NCBI GenBank assembly: GCA_030065755.1
Contig: JASJDA010000003.1
Coordinates: 1 to 64,000 of the forward strand
Source: Prochloraceae cyanobacterium
GTDB lineage: Bacteria > Cyanobacteriota > Cyanobacteriia > Cyanobacteriales > JASJDA01
Direction: 5' to 3'
DNA: 64,000 nt
Positions 9,925 to 23,323 of the stretch are shown here, in pieces. The position numbers and the translations under genes are program-made. Below the pieces are notes generated by a model. It saw only the letters and a program-made list of their open reading frames with translations. It was not told the origin of the DNA and ran no database searches. Within the stretch, counting starts at the first letter, position 1. The number at the start of each line of letters is the position of its first letter.

Positions 9925-11001
9925 CTATTGGGTTAAAAAAGGGCTAACTTTGACCAATATTTTTCGGAAATTTCGGTAAGGCACTAAACCTTTATATTGA
10001 AGACGACCGATAATTATAGCTGGATGTCTTTTTTGAGTTTGAGCGAAAGAGTTAATCTTTTGTCCCGAAAACTTAGGTTGGGTTTGAGCAATAAAAGATT
10101 CTAGTTCCCTTGAAGGAATTAGCCATTCACAAGCTAGTTTATTAGCTTCTTCTTCTCGAGCGTTTTGGTCTAGTTTATCGAGATTGTCTAAATACAAATC
10201 TTGATGCCCCGCAAATATGTGACCCAGTTCGTGCATTAAAGTAAACCAAAACCAATCAATGCGATCGTATCTTAATGTAAGAGCAATAACAGGACGATCG
10301 TTAAAATAAAACATACCACCGTCAATGTAAGTTTTGTCCAGGTTAGGAACTATAATGAAATGAATCCCTAAGCGATGAAGCAAAGAAGGGATTTGAGCAA
10401 CATCATCTTCCTTTTGAGAATAGGTAAGAATCTCAGGGATAGCTTGTTTCAATTTTTCTAGTTGAAAAACTGGTAAGCTTTGTTGTTTAACTAAAAATTC
10501 TACTCGTTTGAGCCAAGCAATTTCTGATTTAATTTCTGTTTGTTTTGCTTGACTTTGACGATAATTAACGTGAAGTTGTGGTGTTTCTTTTGGAGAACTA
10601 ATTCCTAAAAAATCACAGACGAGTTTTTCTAATTCCTCAATAGGTGTAGAATCTGTTGCTGTAATCCAGTTACGCTTCCTTATTTCAGAAATTGGTGCTA
10701 ATTCATACAAGCGACTGCGACGAGTTATTTCTTCTTCTTTGCTCTTTTTTTTTGCTAAGTGAAGGCGATAATTGTCTTCTAAGTCAAGCCAAAATTTTTC
10801 GGAAATACCTAAAGCTGCTGATAGTTCTCTTGCTGTTTCTGGAGTAATTTTCTTGTGACCTTGTATTATTTCGCTAATAACTTGGGGCGGACGTTTTATT
10901 ATTTCTGCTAATTCTTTTTGTGTCAGATCTCGCGCATCCAATTCTCTTTTTAATATAGTTCCAGGTTTAATTATTCTCGCAGGTGTTAAATTACTGGTCA
11001 T
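9925..11001 (-). CDS. HigA-type XRE antitoxin fused to ImmA/IrrE-type metallopeptidase domain
   Basis: N-terminal HTH TQKELAEIIKRPPQVISEIIQGHKKITPETARELSAALG; HELGHIFAGH zinc-peptidase motif. Confidence 0.9.
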   Translation of the reverse strand: MTSNLTPARIIKPGTILKRELDARDLTQKELAEIIKRPPQVISEIIQGHKKITPETARELSAALGISEKFWLDLEDNYRLHLAKKKSKEEEITRRSRLYELAPISEIRKRNWITATDSTPIEELEKLVCDFLGISSPKETPQLHVNYRQSQAKQTEIKSEIAWLKRVEFLVKQQSLPVFQLEKLKQAIPEILTYSQKEDDVAQIPSLLHRLGIHFIIVPNLDKTYIDGGMFYFNDRPVIALTLRYDRIDWFWFTLMHELGHIFAGHQDLYLDNLDKLDQNAREEEANKLACEWLIPSRELESFIAQTQPKFSGQKINSFAQTQKRHPAIIIGRLQYKGLVPYRNFRKILVKVSPFLTQ

Positions 11002-14215: not shown

Positions 14216-17200
14216 TTAGTAGACTTCTAGCATAGCAATTGTTTCTCGTGCTCGATCGTGAATTTCTTGTCCCACCTGTTCATTTTGCAACAAACCATTT
14301 AATTGCTGTCTTATTTGTATTGTAATCTCGTCTTTGTTATTTTTAGAAACCCAGCTTCTATCTAATACACATTTAGCAGCCAAGAAAAGACTAGAATAAT
14401 TATTTTTTTCATTTTTTTCTTCGATCAGATAATCCATGAGTTTAACAAAAAAACGTCTGTCGAGCATACTAGCAGTAAAACTAAGTGTTTCGTACCAAGA
14501 ATCATCGTCCAATCGCTGGCTAAAAAGATTAGTTTTTAGATATTCAAATTCTATTTCTCGTTTTTTCTCAAATTTATCAATCCAAGACCAAGCACAGAAA
14601 AATTCTAAAAAACTACGATGAACAAAACCATACTTATCATCACCATAAAAACAAAGTATAAAGCTGCGAGTAGTTAGTCTTTCTCGCAACCTTCTGGCAA
14701 GCAATATTGTATTTTCTAAATATAAGTATTTGAGATATTCAATGATAATATTGTCTAAATGTTGTTGGTTAATATATAAATTTTTCTGGTGATTGTTCGG
14801 AATGCTATCGGCTTTATTTTGAATTTCGTACGCTACTTGACGCAATATTTCTTGTTTATCTTTGTCGTCCAGTTGGTCTATAGTTGAATCTGAACCTCGA
14901 TAGTCTTGGGGTAAATTTTTGTCATTTTCCCAACGATGTAACAGTACCTTAGATGCTTCTTGATAAAATCTTACTTTATCTATAGCAAGTACGTCGGATC
15001 GACTTAAAATTGCCATCATTGTTAATAGCAAAGGATTTCCAGCAAGTTCTCTTAAAGCAGGAGAATTGTCAATATAATTTTGTAGGCGATCGCGTTTTAA
15101 TTCTGCTTCAGTTTTATCTTCAAAAGAAGAATCATGCCATTTTTCAAGAAACTCTTCAATTTGTTCTTTGTTTAAATCTTGTAACTTAAAATGGCGAAAA
15201 TTAGCATTTTGTAATCGCTGTCGCTGTTTTTGATAACCAATTATTCGCGATGTAATTATACTTCTTGCTTTGGGATATTCAACAGTAAAATTAATAATAT
15301 CAATAACGACATTTTCTCTTTCTCGCTCGCTCAACACTTCATCTAAACCGTCAAAAATCACTAAAGACTGGCGATTTTTAAGCCATTGATGTAGTCCTTT
15401 TTGATTTAAATTACCCCCAATTACTCCTGTTCCTTTCTCTAAATATTCTAGAAAATTTTGGGATAATTTTTTTTGTTTATTTTGGATATATTTGCGCAAT
15501 TGAATTAACAAAGGCAATTCTGATTTTGGCAAAGTACTTAGTGATTGTCGCGCCCATTCCAAAATTTTATACTGAATCAAAGTAGACTTGCCAGAACCAG
15601 TATCCCCTAAAATTACTACATATTTATAATTATTATCTGGATTAAATAAATCCAAAATTGAACAAATATTATTCGATCGTTGGCTATTTTCCTCACGGAC
15701 ATTTTGAGGAATAAAAATTTTCCATAACTTTAAATTATAGTTGGAGCCATCAGTAGCCAAACTATCTAGCCGAAGTCTACTATAAGCTTTTTGGATACCT
15801 TGCTGATAACGAAGTAGATCGAAATCAGGTGAAATAGGAGTAAGTCGATCGGGAATTTTGGTAATTGTCTTAAAGAGTTCTCTTAATTCATCAGACTCTT
15901 GCAGAATAGGTTTTACTTTTCTAACATAGCGCTTTGCTAACCTTTCCCAGTTAAAATCAGTTGGTAAAGACTTTAAATTAAGGTCATTCCAAGTTGTTTT
16001 TAGTAAGACAGTATCGAGAGGTATAGTTTCATCTGAAGAATTCCCCAGAGCTTGACTTATAGGTTTACCTAAAGCTTGTAATATTGATTTATCACGTATG
16101 AATTTATTTAGTGAATCGCTATAATATTTGACTTCATCATCATTGAGATCTGCATCTTCTAATTCTTGCTGCACTAATTCTAAGAAAAGCTTTTGCGCTT
16201 GACCAAAAGCCTTTTGCAGAGGTTTTTCTTGAGCTAGAGAACCCAGACCTTCAATGCTGTCCTTAAAAAAATCTTTAACAAGATCTTTCAAAGCATCCTT
16301 TGTTATTTTGCCAAGAACCTCTTTAAAAGCAAACCCAGCAGGAAATTGAATTCCCCACGCGACCAACAACCAATTTAAATTAGCTATAGTCTCGTTGCTA
16401 GTGTCTTTCAACTTTTCAGCCAACTTAGCGTAATCTCCCCCCAATCCCTCTAATACTTCTAGAGATATTCGAGCATAGGCTTGTTGAACTACCTCCTTTT
16501 TTCCCTCTTCTTCATCTTCTGATGAGGTTTTTAATAAACAGACGCACTCTTTCAAAGATTTTCTTAAATGGCTTTCAATATATTTTGATATTGTATTAAA
16601 AATAAAGACAGAATCACTCAAAGGAGCATCATTTAATAAAATCCTCCTGATGTCTTTGTGCATTACATCAAATAGAACTAGATCGGGATTAGTATCTGTA
16701 CTAATCTCCGTTAATGGTTTCAACAATCCTCCTAAAAATACTTCTGCTACATGAACTGATTGAGACTGAGGTAACAAAGTTTTTTGAATTAAGCGAACCA
16801 CAGGTAAAGTTATAACAGGTGCAGCCATTAATAACCCTGCTAATTTCCTTCCTAAAGGAGAAGATATTCTCCGAAAACGCTCTATTAGTTGTTCTGCGCT
16901 TAATTGACTAACTCGATTTTGAGGTAACTGGGATGGTGGAGTAAAATCGGATGCTGAAGGAAAAACAAAACCAGCCATTATTTTGTCGTGTTTTCCTACT
17001 AAGAACTCACTCCAACGACTGGCAAATTCTTGTTCTAAGGTTAAAACAGGAATTTTTGACCCTTGTTTTAAGTCAAAATCTTTCCATAGAAGCAGTTCGT
17101 GAATATGTAAATTTCGATTGGCAACTCCGCGATCGGCAACTACTGGTATTAAATTAGCTAATTGCACTGCAGCACCTATTCGTAATCCGCTTCTCAACCA

Positions 17201-18088
17201 CACGGTATTGGGTAAGATTTGCACAATAGCAACAGGCTGATGTTTTGTCCAATTTGTAAAAGTTGACAGAAGCTTTCCATCAAACCACATTTGAGCCACA
17301 CAATCACTAACAATTAAAATTAAACGACGACCTGTGAGATCTATTAATTCTTGAGGATTTTTAAACTGTACTTGTTTGCTAAATTTAGTCCTAATAGTAA
17401 TTTTTCCCTGATTATTAGTGGTTAATCCCCAAGTGCGAACTTGCCGAAAAATGCCGTAATGTTCTAAGAGTTCCTTTAATTCATTAATAAGATGTTTCCA
17501 AAGCACCATTGATGAATTGTCATCCACTACTAAAGCGAGATCCAACCAGGGTTCAGTTTCACTTTTGAGAATAGGAATACAGATACTTTCTTCGACCGTG
17601 CGTTTTACTGTTTCTACTTCATCAAGGATGGTTTTTCTTCCAGACTCCACTCGACGCATCAAAGGACGTAAAGCTTTGACCAATTCTAAGGGGTCTCTCA
17701 AGGAAGGGGGATCTGTATATTTTAGGGGTAAAGTTTTTCCATCTGGAGTTGGTGTTGTATTGGCATAAAGTGGAGTTGAGGGTTCCTTATCTTGAGTTGA
17801 GCGTTTGTCTTTATCACCCTCTTTATTAGTACCTGTGGGAGGAGGAATCGTGTCCGATTTATCTGTGGGAGGAGAAATCGTGTCCGATGTACCTGTGGGA
17901 GGAGGAATCGTGTCCGATTCAAAATCTAAATCTAGGTTATCAGATATGGATTTTCGTTTGTCCCCTTCTTGTAGTTTTAAAGCTAACCAGAGAACATCCG
18001 CAATCTCTTTTCCCGTCAAATCAAAATTGACATTTAAACGACAAATTAATTCTTTTAGTTTCTTATTTGCTAATTTTTCTTGAGCCAT
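14216..18088 (-). CDS. vWA/SAV_2336-like domain fused to NACHT STAND NTPase (VMAP-type conflict system component)
   Basis: N-terminal helical domain; vWA-like LDLALVVDDNSSMVLWKHLINELKELLEHYGIFRQV; NACHT P-loop VVILGDTGSGKSTLIQY and Walker B LVIFDGLDEVLS. The 18127 start is TTG; ATG at 18088 gives MAQEKLANKKL and seems likelier. Confidence 0.82.
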   Translation of the reverse strand: MAQEKLANKKLKELICRLNVNFDLTGKEIADVLWLALKLQEGDKRKSISDNLDLDFESDTIPPPTGTSDTISPPTDKSDTIPPPTGTNKEGDKDKRSTQDKEPSTPLYANTTPTPDGKTLPLKYTDPPSLRDPLELVKALRPLMRRVESGRKTILDEVETVKRTVEESICIPILKSETEPWLDLALVVDDNSSMVLWKHLINELKELLEHYGIFRQVRTWGLTTNNQGKITIRTKFSKQVQFKNPQELIDLTGRRLILIVSDCVAQMWFDGKLLSTFTNWTKHQPVAIVQILPNTVWLRSGLRIGAAVQLANLIPVVADRGVANRNLHIHELLLWKDFDLKQGSKIPVLTLEQEFASRWSEFLVGKHDKIMAGFVFPSASDFTPPSQLPQNRVSQLSAEQLIERFRRISSPLGRKLAGLLMAAPVITLPVVRLIQKTLLPQSQSVHVAEVFLGGLLKPLTEISTDTNPDLVLFDVMHKDIRRILLNDAPLSDSVFIFNTISKYIESHLRKSLKECVCLLKTSSEDEEEGKKEVVQQAYARISLEVLEGLGGDYAKLAEKLKDTSNETIANLNWLLVAWGIQFPAGFAFKEVLGKITKDALKDLVKDFFKDSIEGLGSLAQEKPLQKAFGQAQKLFLELVQQELEDADLNDDEVKYYSDSLNKFIRDKSILQALGKPISQALGNSSDETIPLDTVLLKTTWNDLNLKSLPTDFNWERLAKRYVRKVKPILQESDELRELFKTITKIPDRLTPISPDFDLLRYQQGIQKAYSRLRLDSLATDGSNYNLKLWKIFIPQNVREENSQRSNNICSILDLFNPDNNYKYVVILGDTGSGKSTLIQYKILEWARQSLSTLPKSELPLLIQLRKYIQNKQKKLSQNFLEYLEKGTGVIGGNLNQKGLHQWLKNRQSLVIFDGLDEVLSERERENVVIDIINFTVEYPKARSIITSRIIGYQKQRQRLQNANFRHFKLQDLNKEQIEEFLEKWHDSSFEDKTEAELKRDRLQNYIDNSPALRELAGNPLLLTMMAILSRSDVLAIDKVRFYQEASKVLLHRWENDKNLPQDYRGSDSTIDQLDDKDKQEILRQVAYEIQNKADSIPNNHQKNLYINQQHLDNIIIEYLKYLYLENTILLARRLRERLTTRSFILCFYGDDKYGFVHRSFLEFFCAWSWIDKFEKKREIEFEYLKTNLFSQRLDDDSWYETLSFTASMLDRRFFVKLMDYLIEEKNEKNNYSSLFLAAKCVLDRSWVSKNNKDEITIQIRQQLNGLLQNEQVGQEIHDRARETIAMLEVY
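17823..17920. repeat. About 30-bp tandem repeat, 3 copies, encoding DTI(P/S)PPT linker
   Basis: (GTACCTGTGGGAGGAGGAATCGTGTCCGAT)-like units in the vWA-NACHT gene. Confidence 0.85.
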
Positions 18089-18372
18089 TTTTATTGTTTC
18101 AGTCGCTCTGATTTTAATGAGGTACAAATTTCAACTTTTTAAATAACTTCTTGAATCAACAAAATAATTTTTTTATGTGCTAGATAAATATGACAATTAT
18201 TATAGAGACCTTTGGGTTTTAACACCTTCACTTCCGTCAGTGCAAACTTTATGAATTTTAACTTCTGCTCTCGCAGTAAGCTGCTATTTATTTAAATTGC
18301 ACTTTACTTTTTTAGTGCTGTACCCCTTACGGTCAAACAATAAAACTAGAAAATTAAATGCATAACAGCGTA

Positions 18373-19542
18373 TTACCAATCACTTTCAGTAAGTGGTTTC
18401 ATTAACAAATCTCGAAGTCTATCTTTTTGGTCTCGATCTTGAGGACTATTTTCATGGGTAATTATATAAATCGCATTTAATAGTTGATCCGTTGCTTTAT
18501 CCATTGTCTCTCCTTGCTCCGGAACAAAGTGCTCAATTAATTGATTGATTTCGTCAGTTTTTTCGTTAAATAAATCTTCTGTAAAATGAGCTTTGACAAT
18601 ATTTTCTAGTTCCGGAACTGTAGGATCTGGCATTTTCACTCGTAAACATCGCCTTTTAAAGGCTTTTGGAAAATCTCTCTCTCCATTACTGGTCATAACA
18701 ATAATAGGAAAAGCATAACATTTTACTCGTCCTCCTTTAATCGTGACATCAATATCTTCATCGCTCGTTTGCACTGTAAATAAATTATCTTTTTGTTTAT
18801 TTTTAGATCGTCTAACTAATTCAGCAATTTCAAATTGTCCTTCTTCAAATAAATTTAATAAATCGTTGGGTAAATTAATATCGCTTTTATCAATTTCGTC
18901 AATTAAGAGTACCCTAGGTAAAAAAGACGGTAAAAATGCTGTTCCTAATGCTCCTAATTTAATATATTGTCCAATGGGTTGTTCTTCACTATGAGAACCA
19001 TCAGGATTAGGAGAATTATTAGGAATATGATTATTATTAGCATCTTGGAGTCGAGCTATTGCATCATAGCGATATAATCCTTCTTGTAAAGTAGAACGAG
19101 CAGTAATTGACCAAGACAATACTGAACCTAAATTTAATTCATAAGCGATCGCATAAGCTAAAGATGTTTTTCCAGAACCAGGTCTTCCTGTTACCAATAA
19201 AGGTCTTCTCAAATAAATAGCTGCATTAACAGCATCTCTAACTTCGGTTGCATCCTTAGAATCAGAAAGTCTAAAATTTTTACCTTTTTTTATCTCTCTT
19301 TCTTTCTTATTTGCTCTTTCAATTAATTGCTCGAAGCGGTTTCTGTCTATATCTTCAGGAGTTTGTTTTTTTTCTTTTTCCTTGTCTGTCTCAGACTCAC
19401 TAATAACAAAATCTTCTGTTTTTCCAAACTGTCTCCAGGGCGGAGATTCTATCTTTTTAATATTGTCTCGTAGTTTGTGAATGTCCTCTTCAGTTAATTC
19501 TTTTTCTCTTCCTTTTCCTTGGAATAGATACCATTCAGCCAT
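18373..19542 (-). CDS. MoxR-like AAA+ ATPase, VMAP-associated
   Basis: Walker A VTGRPGSGKTSLAYAIA, Walker B RVLLIDEIDKSDINLPNDLLNLFEEGQFEI. ATG at 19542 (MAEWYLFQGKGREKEL) has an AAGGAG RBS; ORF-track start 19575 is earlier. Confidence 0.92.
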   Translation of the reverse strand: MAEWYLFQGKGREKELTEEDIHKLRDNIKKIESPPWRQFGKTEDFVISESETDKEKEKKQTPEDIDRNRFEQLIERANKKEREIKKGKNFRLSDSKDATEVRDAVNAAIYLRRPLLVTGRPGSGKTSLAYAIAYELNLGSVLSWSITARSTLQEGLYRYDAIARLQDANNNHIPNNSPNPDGSHSEEQPIGQYIKLGALGTAFLPSFLPRVLLIDEIDKSDINLPNDLLNLFEEGQFEIAELVRRSKNKQKDNLFTVQTSDEDIDVTIKGGRVKCYAFPIIVMTSNGERDFPKAFKRRCLRVKMPDPTVPELENIVKAHFTEDLFNEKTDEINQLIEHFVPEQGETMDKATDQLLNAIYIITHENSPQDRDQKDRLRDLLMKPLTESDW

Positions 19543-19571
19543 AATGAAATCTCCTTGTCTGTATTTATCTA

Positions 19572-21752
19572 TCAAAATCCAGTAAATATATCATCTCCTG
19601 GATTAGTAAATTTATCATCTCCTAAATTTTTATCAAATTTAGAATGTAATCGATGAGGATCGTCAAATAAAAAACCAAGATGATATCCTAAATATTCATT
19701 TTGTTTTTCTTCTGGTTCTACATAAGCATTTTCCCTAATAATCCTAATTGATTCAAATAGGTTTTCAGGCTTTTTAATATTATCAACGGTTAAAACATCT
19801 TCAAATTCATAATTGTCTATCTTTTCTTCCTCTCTAAGCTTTAAATTTTCCAAGAAATTTCCTCTTAGCCAAAATGCAAAAGGAATACCATGACGAAAAA
19901 TACTAGTTAAAAATTCTTCAATATGACAAGTATAACTTTCTTCTAGTAAAGGACAATTAATATTAATGTTAATGAATTTAGTTAGTTGTTTTCCTAATTT
20001 TTTCCAGTTGTAGTTTTTTTCTAGTTTCTTCAGACAGATTACTCTCTTTTTAATAGTTTCTGGGGTCAATGAGTCTTGTAAATCACTCAATTTCTTCCAT
20101 TTACTTAATAAACTATGATGATAACTATAACTACCACTATAGCGATCGTAAGAACGGAGAACGAATTTGTATCTAGAACCAAACCACTCAGGATCGGATT
20201 CATTAATAGGAATTTTTTGAATTTCAGGGGCAAAAACAACCAAATATTTTTTAGGCAAAAATAATTCTATTGTCAATTCATTTACATTTTCATAAAAAAC
20301 TAACTTTTTATTACTTTCTTCAATAAATTGATAAACCTTTGAGCAAATATATTCAATATCTTCTGAGTTTACATCAATAGATTTATCTTCTATTAAAGTA
20401 ACTGTTTTTCTTTTGACTTCTTGGGAGTCAGACATTTCTTCAAAAATCAATTCGGCTTTAAATTCCAATTTAGACTGGTGATGAATATTTGGCTCAACTA
20501 AAATAAGTAAGTAAGGTAACCCAATCTTACAAATAGTTTCTTCTTGCCTGTCATGTTTAACCTTTGATAACTGATTTAAAGTATTGCTATCTATTCCCAG
20601 TTCTTGACTTGTTTGATTAATCCATTGATTTAGCTCATTTTTAATGGCTAATAGATCGGATTGCTGAGATTCAAAAAGAAATTGAGCAAATTCTACGACT
20701 AACGGTAGATTAGATTCATGATTCCGATCTAGTTTAATTTCTAATAAAATCTCTTTGAGATAATCGAAATTGTTTTCTTCGGATAAATGAAGATAGTTTC
20801 CTTCAGGATCCTTACTATATCTATATAAAAATTGATAACAATAACGAGATATATTGTGCCATTTAAGAACATTTATGATTTTAACAAATTCTTGCCATTG
20901 CGAATCTAAAATATCAAATTGTTTTGCAGATTTAGTCAAAGCAATTCTTGACGGTCTATTACCATATTGATCTTCGTAAGATAAATAAATAGGACCTGGA
21001 TCATTTTCATGATCTGTTTTAAAAATATCTTGTACATTTTCTATGATTTTATTTATAGATTCAGTAGATAATAAGTTATCTTGTTTATTTAGCTCTTTTA
21101 GTAATATTTTTGAAAATAATCCTGTTTTTTCCTTATCAAGATTTATACTCGGATATCCTTTTTCGGTTGCTAGTAAAACAACTTGTTTACGTTTTTTATC
21201 TTGTTCTCCGGAAGGAAAATCATAATTTGGTAATGATACCAATTCCTCAGAAGAATAATTAGCATAAGAATAATATTTAGCACAAGCATCAAAGATCAAT
21301 ATTTGCTGATATAAAATACCAAATAACTCTGAGTTTAAATATTCTAATAAAGAGTTTAAATTGAGATTTTCATTTCCATCATCATAGTAAAATCTACGGT
21401 CATTACGGCCAATCATAACACCGTGTCCACCCCAAAATATATATAGTAAATCTCCTTTATCTTTATTCTTTGGAATAACTTTAGTAATTGCTGTGCGAAT
21501 ATTGTCAAAGGTAGCTTTTTGTTTTTTATCCCATAGTGATTGTAAAGATTTTTTATCCTTTACTATGTCTGGTTTAGATAATTCAGAAATATACAGTTCA
21601 ATATTGTTAATAGGAACTTTTCTTGTCAACAGCCAATCTGCAAATTTCAAGGCATCTGATGCGGGTCCATCTAAGTCCCAGTCCTGACCCCGATCGTATT
21701 TTTCTATACCAACAATCAGTGCGTAAGTTTTTTGAGGCTCGGGTACATTCAT
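19572..21752 (-). CDS. Caspase-like peptidase fused to VMAP-C-like domain
   Basis: Peptidase C14 N-terminus YALIVGIEKYDRG, His motif IFWGGHGVM, Cys motif ILIFDACAKYYS; C-terminal region with LTIELFLPKKYLV and a late F-W/H-rich segment typical of vWA-MoxR-associated proteins. Confidence 0.82.
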   Translation of the reverse strand: MNVPEPQKTYALIVGIEKYDRGQDWDLDGPASDALKFADWLLTRKVPINNIELYISELSKPDIVKDKKSLQSLWDKKQKATFDNIRTAITKVIPKNKDKGDLLYIFWGGHGVMIGRNDRRFYYDDGNENLNLNSLLEYLNSELFGILYQQILIFDACAKYYSYANYSSEELVSLPNYDFPSGEQDKKRKQVVLLATEKGYPSINLDKEKTGLFSKILLKELNKQDNLLSTESINKIIENVQDIFKTDHENDPGPIYLSYEDQYGNRPSRIALTKSAKQFDILDSQWQEFVKIINVLKWHNISRYCYQFLYRYSKDPEGNYLHLSEENNFDYLKEILLEIKLDRNHESNLPLVVEFAQFLFESQQSDLLAIKNELNQWINQTSQELGIDSNTLNQLSKVKHDRQEETICKIGLPYLLILVEPNIHHQSKLEFKAELIFEEMSDSQEVKRKTVTLIEDKSIDVNSEDIEYICSKVYQFIEESNKKLVFYENVNELTIELFLPKKYLVVFAPEIQKIPINESDPEWFGSRYKFVLRSYDRYSGSYSYHHSLLSKWKKLSDLQDSLTPETIKKRVICLKKLEKNYNWKKLGKQLTKFINININCPLLEESYTCHIEEFLTSIFRHGIPFAFWLRGNFLENLKLREEEKIDNYEFEDVLTVDNIKKPENLFESIRIIRENAYVEPEEKQNEYLGYHLGFLFDDPHRLHSKFDKNLGDDKFTNPGDDIFTGF

Positions 21753-22960
21753 AATTTTCTAATCCTATTTGCAATTGCTTCCCATGTAGCATCATTTTCC
21801 CAATAACCACCATGAGAGTGGGGAAAAGGAAGCTTATTATCAACAGGAATATCTTGCACTCTGTTCGGAAAAACATTTCCGCCAATAAAACTAAGAAAGT
21901 CATAGCGATCGTAGATATTTAACCATTCAGGAAAAGCATTAGAATCAGGTAATGGGGTACCAAATTTTAAACTTTGCAGTGCATTAATTTCATAAAAATA
22001 AGGAACTTGAGAGCCAACTGTTACTAAGAGCTTAACTTTAGGAATTTTATTTTTAATTAATAAATCAACACTAGCAATTCCTCCTAAACTATGCGCAAGT
22101 AAAACTACCGGAGGTTGAGCATCTTTAATATAGTTCTCAAGCAAATCCCTAATTGTTTGACCATGCCCTTGATAGAGTAAAATATCTCCAATCATTGGGG
22201 TCGTAATATCTGAAATTAGCCCTCTTTTTCCTGCTAATCCATAGGTGGGTAATTTTAAGATTTGTTTTATAAACCAATTTCCAGGACCACGTTCTGAAGG
22301 CATAATTTCACTACTAATACTTTTAATAATTTTCTCTCTCTCAGTTGGGTTTTCCTCAATACTAGGGGGAGATTTTTTTTGTATTTTGTAAATAGAAATT
22401 GACTCAGCAATAATAGCTCTCGATATTATATCTCGATATTCAATTAAAGTATCATCTGAAACTTGTTTGAGTGCTTCTCTATAAGAATTAGAGCTAACAA
22501 CATTTTGATGAGCTTGACCAAAGACATCTGCAATTTCACTTTCTTTTAATTGATTTTCAAATGATGTATTATTTGAAGGATTTAATTGTCTTACCTTCTC
22601 ATCTATTATGTCACTGGGTTCTTTCTCACCTGGCCTAGATCTCTGTTGCTTCTTTGCTATTATCGAGAATAAACGTAATTCATAAAAAGAATCTAGAGAT
22701 AGCTCCATCCAACGAACAGTATCTTCATTTACTGTAAAATCATTTCTAGTTGAATCATAGAAAGGGATAGAAGCCCCATTAGCATTCAATTTAGCCCCTA
22801 GATAATTTCCCCACGAACAAGGAACCACTTCAATCTCTGGTAGTCTTTTTTGAAGTTCTAACTTAACTTTTGGAAATATTGTTTTTGATAATGATGTTTT
22901 TGTTTTTGATAATGATGTTTCTCTTACCGATATTCCATGTACAAATATTACTGTTGCCAT
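21749..22960 (-). CDS. Alpha/beta-hydrolase (lipase-like), first gene of the conflict operon
   Basis: VIFVHGIS oxyanion region, VVLLAHSLGGIAS nucleophile elbow, C-terminal HSHGGYW; 4-nt ATGA overlap with the caspase gene. Confidence 0.85.
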   Translation of the reverse strand: MATVIFVHGISVRETSLSKTKTSLSKTIFPKVKLELQKRLPEIEVVPCSWGNYLGAKLNANGASIPFYDSTRNDFTVNEDTVRWMELSLDSFYELRLFSIIAKKQQRSRPGEKEPSDIIDEKVRQLNPSNNTSFENQLKESEIADVFGQAHQNVVSSNSYREALKQVSDDTLIEYRDIISRAIIAESISIYKIQKKSPPSIEENPTEREKIIKSISSEIMPSERGPGNWFIKQILKLPTYGLAGKRGLISDITTPMIGDILLYQGHGQTIRDLLENYIKDAQPPVVLLAHSLGGIASVDLLIKNKIPKVKLLVTVGSQVPYFYEINALQSLKFGTPLPDSNAFPEWLNIYDRYDFLSFIGGNVFPNRVQDIPVDNKLPFPHSHGGYWENDATWEAIANRIRKL

Positions 22961-23303: not shown

Positions 23304-23323
23304 AGCACCAAGATCTTGGTGCT
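23304..23323. promoter_or_regulatory. 20-bp perfect palindrome upstream of hisD
   Basis: AGCACCAAGATCTTGGTGCT. Confidence 0.6.

Follow-up and report, generated by a model that had tools for sequence, protein, structure and literature searches.

A four-gene VMAP-type operon coupling a caspase-like protease and a predicted alpha/beta-hydrolase in a Prochloraceae cyanobacterium

A four-gene operon of a Prochloraceae cyanobacterium is almost certainly a VMAP ternary conflict system, and it is of the caspase/hydrolase subtype, a kind already known (Kaur et al. 2020, PMC7159879). We consider the odds about even (probability roughly 0.5) that the operon encodes an inducible self-killing device, similar to abortive infection, in which a caspase released by MoxR and the vWA protein switches on the hydrolase. 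This explanation rests on the intact catalytic and ATP-binding motifs, the gene order that recurs across phyla, the constancy of the hydrolase-caspase pair, and the presence of a whole NNH2-NACHT arm. The portability of the pair, the NNH2-NACHT arm on the vWA protein, and an arm swap relative to a Trichormus operon go beyond the text of Kaur et al.

In passages of that paper, VMAP systems are predicted to be NTP-gated and to stay off until an invader is sensed, which is a prediction and not an experiment (PMC7159879). The initial annotation had named the operon its strongest candidate for a poorly characterised system. No experimental work on any VMAP system was found in the literature searched, but the arrangement itself had already been described by Kaur et al.

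Organization of the operon

The window is the whole 64,000-nucleotide stretch of DNA that was analyzed. According to its open reading frame (ORF) list, the minus strand carries a unit of four genes, in the order alpha/beta-hydrolase, caspase-VMAP, MoxR ATPase, and vWA-NNH2-NACHT, located on contig C135 of an 8.46-Mb genome in 455 contigs. The features are as follows, with the type of evidence in parentheses.

21749..22960, minus strand: alpha/beta-hydrolase gene, 403 aa (ORF, Pfam, conservation, model)
22223..22225, minus strand: codon of Arg246 at the edge of the hydrolase cap, candidate caspase cut site (conservation, model)
19572..21752, minus strand: caspase-VMAP fusion protein, 726 aa (ORF, Pfam)
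21018..21728, minus strand: caspase (Peptidase_C14) domain with catalytic His110 and Cys157 (Pfam, conservation, fold match)
20313..20969, minus strand: VMAP middle region, about residues 262-480 (model, locus comparison, domain scan)
19656..20291, minus strand: VMAP-C domain (Pfam PF20028)
18373..19542, minus strand: MoxR AAA+ ATPase gene from its ATG; the TTG-started ORF begins at 19575 (ORF, Pfam, motifs)
14216..18127, minus strand: vWA-NNH2-NACHT gene, 1303 aa from TTG 18127 or 1290 aa from ATG 18088 (ORF, Pfam, NCBIfam)
16562..18013, minus strand: vWA module with flanking helical extensions (SAV_2336_NTERM), MIDAS-like VDDNSSM (NCBIfam)
15752..16303, minus strand: NNH2, NACHT N-terminal helical domain 2 (Pfam)
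15131..15622, minus strand: NACHT NTPase domain with intact Walker A (GDTGSGKST) and Walker B (LVIFDGLDEV) (Pfam, motifs)

The hydrolase and caspase genes overlap by ATGA. The most likely start of MoxR is ATG 19542, which lies 29 nt past the caspase-VMAP stop and is preceded by AAGGAG, and for the last gene ATG 18088 is the most likely start and TTG 18127 a possible one, leaving a gap of 245-284 nt after MoxR. This layout agrees with the initial annotation, which had read an ATGA overlap, a MoxR gene about 30 nt after the caspase stop with its own ribosome binding site, and a vWA-NACHT gene 0.25 kb farther on the same strand. The neighboring genes, read from the sequence as a prenyltransferase-like gene and hisD, are both on the opposite strand, and the four genes are thus the entire same-strand unit. 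A promoter scan returned 50 sites where 37 were expected by chance, and nothing usable was among them. Since the hisD of the sole same-genus genome compared is 42% identical to that of the window, an orthologous flank for an empty-site comparison is absent. In the operon, PADLOC reported weak matches to ATPases and a generic one to a caspase, and nothing more. The named relatives of the operon genes are mostly cyanobacterial.

Caspase-VMAP and MoxR proteins

Domain searches recovered VMAP-C, the caspase, MoxR, and the vWA module, in line with the earlier assignment of the operon to the VMAP type. Peptidase_C14 (E 3e-12) and VMAP-C (PF20028, E 3.8e-16; 60 bits against a cut-off of 27) were matched in the same protein, and the catalytic residues are conserved among the caspase relatives (His110 in 83/84, Cys157 in 82/84). 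In a Foldseek search with the AlphaFold model (pLDDT 72), the caspase part matched the paracaspase MALT1 and caspases (E 9e-9); the matches of the whole chain came mostly from this part and not from VMAP-C, and a profile search for relatives of solved structure returned none. The VMAP middle region, which is shared with the Trichormus operon (L063), consists of helices followed by strands, and no catalogued VMAP-M or EAD was detected in it, even when it was scanned alone. An EAD had been expected in the initial annotation, and the domain scan of all four proteins did not find one. The same genome contains another caspase, which is fused to NACHT-HEAT and paired with a hydrolase (contig C266, L038).

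MoxR was assigned to AAA_5 by Pfam. Its N-terminal motifs are WYLFQG and PPWRQF, where WxhapG and PsWRxa are expected, and these motifs are described as unique to the MoxRs of VMAP systems in passages of Kaur et al. (PMC7159879). Regular expressions for the two motifs matched 40 and 47 of 55 MoxR ORFs, respectively.

Hydrolase

The hydrolase was identified mainly from its HSLGG elbow, the conserved Ser-Asp-His residues, and the AlphaFold model. Pfam gave a weak Abhydrolase_6 match (E 4e-4, below the cut-off), and a profile search found no relatives of solved structure by sequence. The predicted catalytic residues are Ser291 (within AHSLGG), Asp354 (or Asp351), and His383, and among the hydrolase relatives Ser291 and Asp354 are each conserved in 88/88 and His383 in 87/88. 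The model (pLDDT 81) places the nucleophile elbow after a strand in an alpha/beta-hydrolase arrangement and has a large helical cap at about residues 79-252. Its best Foldseek matches in the PDB are esterases, lipases, and thioesterases, an acyl-protein thioesterase among them; all matches listed belong to the alpha/beta-hydrolase superfamily and they are nonsignificant (E of at least 4e-3). The elbow, triad, and model uphold the earlier reading of an alpha/beta-hydrolase, whereas its possible identity as a lipase is a superfamily-level guess from the predicted fold.

One could suppose that the hydrolase acts upstream of the caspase and is not the executioner, either as an enzyme that generates or erases an ester or acyl signal by which the caspase is licensed, or as its inhibitor or chaperone. 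Its gene is the first in the operon and shares the ATGA overlap with the caspase gene, and the thioesterase and esterases among the fold matches would suit such a role; strict conservation of the triad speaks for catalysis, whichever its direction. We regard this arrangement as very improbable.

Arg246 is conserved in 88/88 hydrolase relatives and lies in a low-confidence, flexible segment (residues 224-256, pLDDT < 50). MALT1 prefers to cleave at Arg, and as MALT1 is the top fold match of the caspase part, Arg246 is a candidate cut site. The assignment is a long shot, and Arg246, being close to the invariant Asp259 and Tyr263, could equally have a structural role.

vWA-NNH2-NACHT protein

In the last gene, Pfam detected NNH2 (E 4.6e-51) and NACHT (E 4.4e-14) and no vWA, and NCBIfam detected SAV_2336_NTERM (E 3e-121). 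SAV_2336_NTERM is taken as the vWA-containing N-terminal module of VMAP systems from its gene context, because it adjoins VMAP and MoxR in 18 systems. The metal-site motif VDDNSSM is one position off the canonical DxSxS, and the motif is variable in relatives too. By eye, the acidic/aromatic spacing of GKEIADVLW near residue 40 resembles [D/E]xxx[D/E]xxx(aromatic), the exact pattern being absent. A single weak match of this protein to pneumovirus M2-1 (E 0.004) in the search of solved structures was judged to be chance.

Animal NLR immune receptors have a bacterial relative in the NACHT switch of the operon. Almost from end to end, residues 584-1300 align with NNH2-NACHT proteins that stand alone (bNACHT proteins of the NNH2 type), with 44-48% identity over about 700 residues; the open frames of these relatives are 726-775 aa, or about 700-775 aa overall. 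At all three loci inspected, a second NNH2-NACHT gene adjoins the short one. This partner is long and carries HEAT repeats in both complete cases (L168, L170), and is cut by the contig end in the third (L169). A similar pair of more distantly related genes is present on contig C354 of the window's genome, its second member being NACHT-HEAT with no NNH2 match. On sequence grounds, the arm in the window is the counterpart of the short member that lacks a sensor, here fused to vWA. Unlike the stand-alone proteins, it sits behind vWA and no long NNH2-NACHT partner gene adjoins the operon; the domain scan found no sensor repeats in the ~300 residues remaining after NACHT. That the fusion of vWA with NNH2-NACHT is common was rejected, as no other vWA-NNH2 fusion was found among the NNH2 matches in 248 cyanobacterial genomes or among the matches listed from 393 genomes of the same order, two sets that overlap.

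These features bear on whether the vWA-NACHT protein itself senses the invader and relays the signal through MoxR to the VMAP-linked caspase as effector, which we think unlikely. A mechanism of this kind is proposed as an alternate one for a DGR-diversified VMAP system in passages of PMC10907252, the arms are variable, and NACHT proteins of other clades function in phage defence in E. coli and are described as phage sensors in the parts of PMC12169576 consulted. However, the NACHT protein in the window is a short form lacking a sensor of repeats, and the long partner that is the presumed sensor of its stand-alone relatives does not adjoin the operon.

Recurrence of the gene order

VMAP-C occurs in 21 of 248 cyanobacterial genomes, and VMAP, MoxR, and vWA are in this order at 18 of the 21 cyanobacterial VMAP loci examined (of the other three, one is truncated at the end of its contig). 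When species-level genomes were scanned with the hydrolase as the starting point, 80 loci in many species were obtained. A caspase ORF is next downstream of the hydrolase at 77 of them, and a 78th (L066) has a caspase fragment. The 80 hydrolase loci were sorted as follows.

Hydrolase-[caspase-VMAP]-MoxR-vWA: 14
The same order, with caspase and VMAP-C as separate ORFs: 6
VMAP-MoxR-vWA(NB-ARC) followed by hydrolase-caspase, actinobacterial (Streptomyces): 12
MoxR present, VMAP-C match absent: 3
Hydrolase-[caspase-NB-ARC], cyanobacterial: 36
Other or truncated: 6
Caspase ORF absent, L066 with its caspase fragment included: 3

Many of the NB-ARC loci come from Nostoc relatives, so these counts are of non-independent events. 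The full order of hydrolase, caspase, VMAP, MoxR, and vWA is present at 20 loci (14 + 6) from Cyanobacteriota, Actinomycetota, Pseudomonadota, and Acidobacteriota. A gene order recurring across so many genomes is not a matter of chance, and a unique four-gene order could be rejected as well. The co-occurrence of the four genes elsewhere, raised in the initial annotation, is thereby borne out by these 20 loci and by the 12 with hydrolase-caspase after VMAP-MoxR-vWA; the position of the pair outside the VMAP genes in those 12 actinobacterial loci indicates that fusion of the caspase to VMAP is not universal. Hydrolases with no intact caspase adjoining were also seen (L067, L070, and G046/L033).

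As far as the passages of Kaur et al. 2020 (PMC7159879) describe them, VMAP systems resemble the operon in the VMAP-MoxR-vWA order, the caspase-VMAP fusion, the neighboring alpha/beta-hydrolase of caspase-VMAPs, the MoxR motifs, the variable vWA arm, and the several paralogous systems per genome; NACHT arms are mentioned as sporadic. The operon differs from them in its NNH2-NACHT arm and in having neither the catalogued VMAP-M nor EAD.

The operon of Trichormus sp. NMC-1 (L063/L171) is the closest sibling among the matches listed, with its four genes arranged identically and the VMAP middle region shared; its hydrolase is 54% and its vWA module 67% identical to those of the window. Its vWA arm, in contrast to NNH2-NACHT in the window, consists of a lectin-like SBD and FGE-sulfatase. 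A vWA module 67% identical and yet joined to a different arm is a clear case of arm replacement, an effector swap. In the other hydrolase-caspase loci with MoxR and vWA, the arms are FGE-sulfatase, trypsin, TPR, WD40-receiver, and EAD2.

A module for developmental or stress-induced death, or for housekeeping, in a large cyanobacterium would be consistent with the 16 caspase-domain matches in the genome, with the caspase homologues discussed for cyanobacterial programmed death in passages of PMC7475262, and with metabolic flanks in place of a defence island. The patchy occurrence of VMAP-C (21/248) speaks against it, as do the swapping of arms, which is typical of conflict systems, and the sole same-genus genome compared, where no relative of vWA-NACHT was found beyond a weak NACHT match. 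A role outside defence is, in our judgment, quite improbable.

A portable hydrolase-caspase pair

The hydrolase-caspase pair is kept while the second half of the caspase varies among VMAP-C, NB-ARC, NACHT-HEAT, and TIR, the TIR partner being found at one locus (L101). In the pairs with NB-ARC from Nostoc and other cyanobacteria (for example L065, L074, and L080), the adjacent hydrolase has ~45% identity to that of the window; NB-ARC (AP-ATPase) replaces VMAP, TPR repeats stand beside NB-ARC in L074 and L080, and no adjoining MoxR-vWA genes were found. In a maximum-likelihood tree built from 62 hydrolases, the NB-ARC label has to change five times, and well-supported branches enforce no fewer than four of these changes; the hydrolases of the window and of Trichormus, both from VMAP loci, pair together, and their sister clade holds NB-ARC and unclassified loci. 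As judged from the tree, this shows that the pair is portable and has switched partners repeatedly. In the passages of the VMAP literature consulted, the NB-ARC and NACHT pairings were not found; Kaur et al. (PMC7159879) record that hydrolase and caspase are paired in VMAP systems and that GAP1-N1 systems have a related hydrolase.

The conservation of the pair under NB-ARC, NACHT-HEAT, TIR, and VMAP makes the hydrolase, not the vWA arm, the constant partner of the caspase. The hydrolase thus probably works together with the caspase itself, whichever switch controls the latter. This matters for the mechanism put forward for VMAP systems by Kaur et al. (passages of PMC7159879), in which sensing falls to VMAP and remodeling to MoxR and vWA, and the vWA protein is the main substrate of the caspase, whose cut would in the present case free an NNH2-NACHT effector, with the hydrolase as an accessory. 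The arms are swapped between close relatives, as effectors would be, and elsewhere the NNH2-NACHT part exists as a whole protein on its own. Against this stand the 36 NB-ARC-type loci, where the pair is kept with the caspase tied to another NTPase, and the retention of the hydrolase catalytic residues; together they make the hydrolase look like an obligate partner of the caspase. We hold the release of an NNH2-NACHT effector to be rather unlikely as the main route.

Proposed mechanism

Under the self-killing reading, caspase-VMAP would be kept inactive at rest through the docking of its VMAP part to MoxR and the vWA protein. An invader would be detected via the VMAP middle region and/or the NACHT arm, MoxR, with vWA as its co-chaperone, would remodel the complex at the expense of ATP, and oligomerisation of the NACHT arm might serve as a second threshold or an amplifier. 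The released caspase would then cleave the hydrolase, perhaps at the flexible and invariant Arg246, which would turn on the esterase/lipase, so that the membrane or another essential ester is damaged and the cell dies or is arrested. The caspase may also cut the vWA protein and release its NNH2-NACHT part. That the caspase acts through the hydrolase as executioner is in our view evenly balanced, and phage-triggered abortive death is the function that we infer.

We tentatively suggest, as a possibility we would not favor outright, that the pair serves bacteria generally as an executioner cassette, able to be placed on any NTP-driven trigger (AP-ATPase, NACHT, TIR, or MoxR-vWA-VMAP), with caspase proteolysis activating a membrane-damaging hydrolase; the trigger here would combine, in one complex, the MoxR-vWA machine and a short NLR of the "helper" type. 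If so, the same pair under at least three switches would give bacterial "apoptosome," "inflammasome," and MoxR-vWA systems a common output. A caspase-like protease that activates a lipase-like enzyme would likewise give bacteria, besides gasdermins, a second way for a caspase to bring about membrane death, and would be an enzymatic counterpart of caspase-gasdermin death. The constant pair also offers a direct experimental handle on VMAP systems, a prediction dating from 2020. The CARD-NLR-like LypABC system of Caulobacter (PMC13236601) is similarly a lysis device built of a peptidase and an NLR-like ATPase, but LypA is a trypsin-like peptidase, and MoxR, VMAP, and a hydrolase are unmentioned in the paper.

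Elsewhere in this genome, further VMAP-type systems or vWA genes carry other arms, Roc-COR (C229) or FGE-sulfatase (C415, C155), following the pattern of paralogues described in passages of Kaur et al. (PMC7159879).

Variant arrangements of the operon parts

The TIR domain takes the place of VMAP-C in the caspase fusion of a Holophagales MAG, and in Streptomyces (L113-L116, L118, L122, L123, L125, L129, L131, L132, L142) the same parts occur in rearranged order, with VMAP-MoxR-vWA-NB-ARC followed by hydrolase-caspase. At another locus, L044, no hydrolase of the window-operon family was found near a caspase-like ORF and its VMAP gene; this locus seems to depart from the published statement that the two "always" occur together.

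L101 8224-12498, hydrolase, caspase-TIR fusion, MoxR (Holophagales MAG)
L044 9047-10015, caspase-like ORF directly upstream of the VMAP gene

Related loci and relics in the source genome

A second hydrolase-caspase pair is carried by the source genome of the window; here the caspase belongs to a fusion of 1670 aa that also contains NACHT and an extended array of HEAT repeats. Additional VMAP-type systems or vWA genes (L062, L057, L160) have Roc-COR GTPase or FGE-sulfatase arms; L160 has a vWA gene, and a VMAP-C match is absent from its contig, C155. Two fragments at other places in this genome share 57-68% identity with the window NNH2-NACHT part and are leftovers of close relatives.

L038 172-6386 (contig C266), second hydrolase-caspase pair
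L158 about 3780-4224 (contig C284 7779-8223), NNH2-NACHT fragment containing stops
Contig C144 21856-21972, NNH2-NACHT fragment

Stand-alone NNH2-NACHT gene pairs

Stand-alone NNH2-NACHT genes were observed in tandem at four loci, a short sensorless member (about 700-750 aa) being paired with a long second member that contains HEAT repeats where complete. This arrangement is reminiscent of helper/sensor NLR pairs.

L168 1503-7877, tandem pair
L169 5667-9272, tandem pair
L170 460-6885, tandem pair
L161 3306-8257, tandem short/long NACHT pair; second gene NACHT-HEAT, without NNH2 match

Window features outside the operon

Between hisD and the operon lies a perfect palindrome with 8-bp arms, followed on the minus strand by a T-run, which may represent a terminator or regulator site. 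A further ORF, read from sequence only, combines an HTH (HigA/XRE-like) N-terminus with an HELGH metallopeptidase motif and is putatively ImmA/IrrE-like.

Window 23304-23323, palindrome AGCACCAAGATCTTGGTGCT
Window 9925-11001, HTH-metallopeptidase ORF
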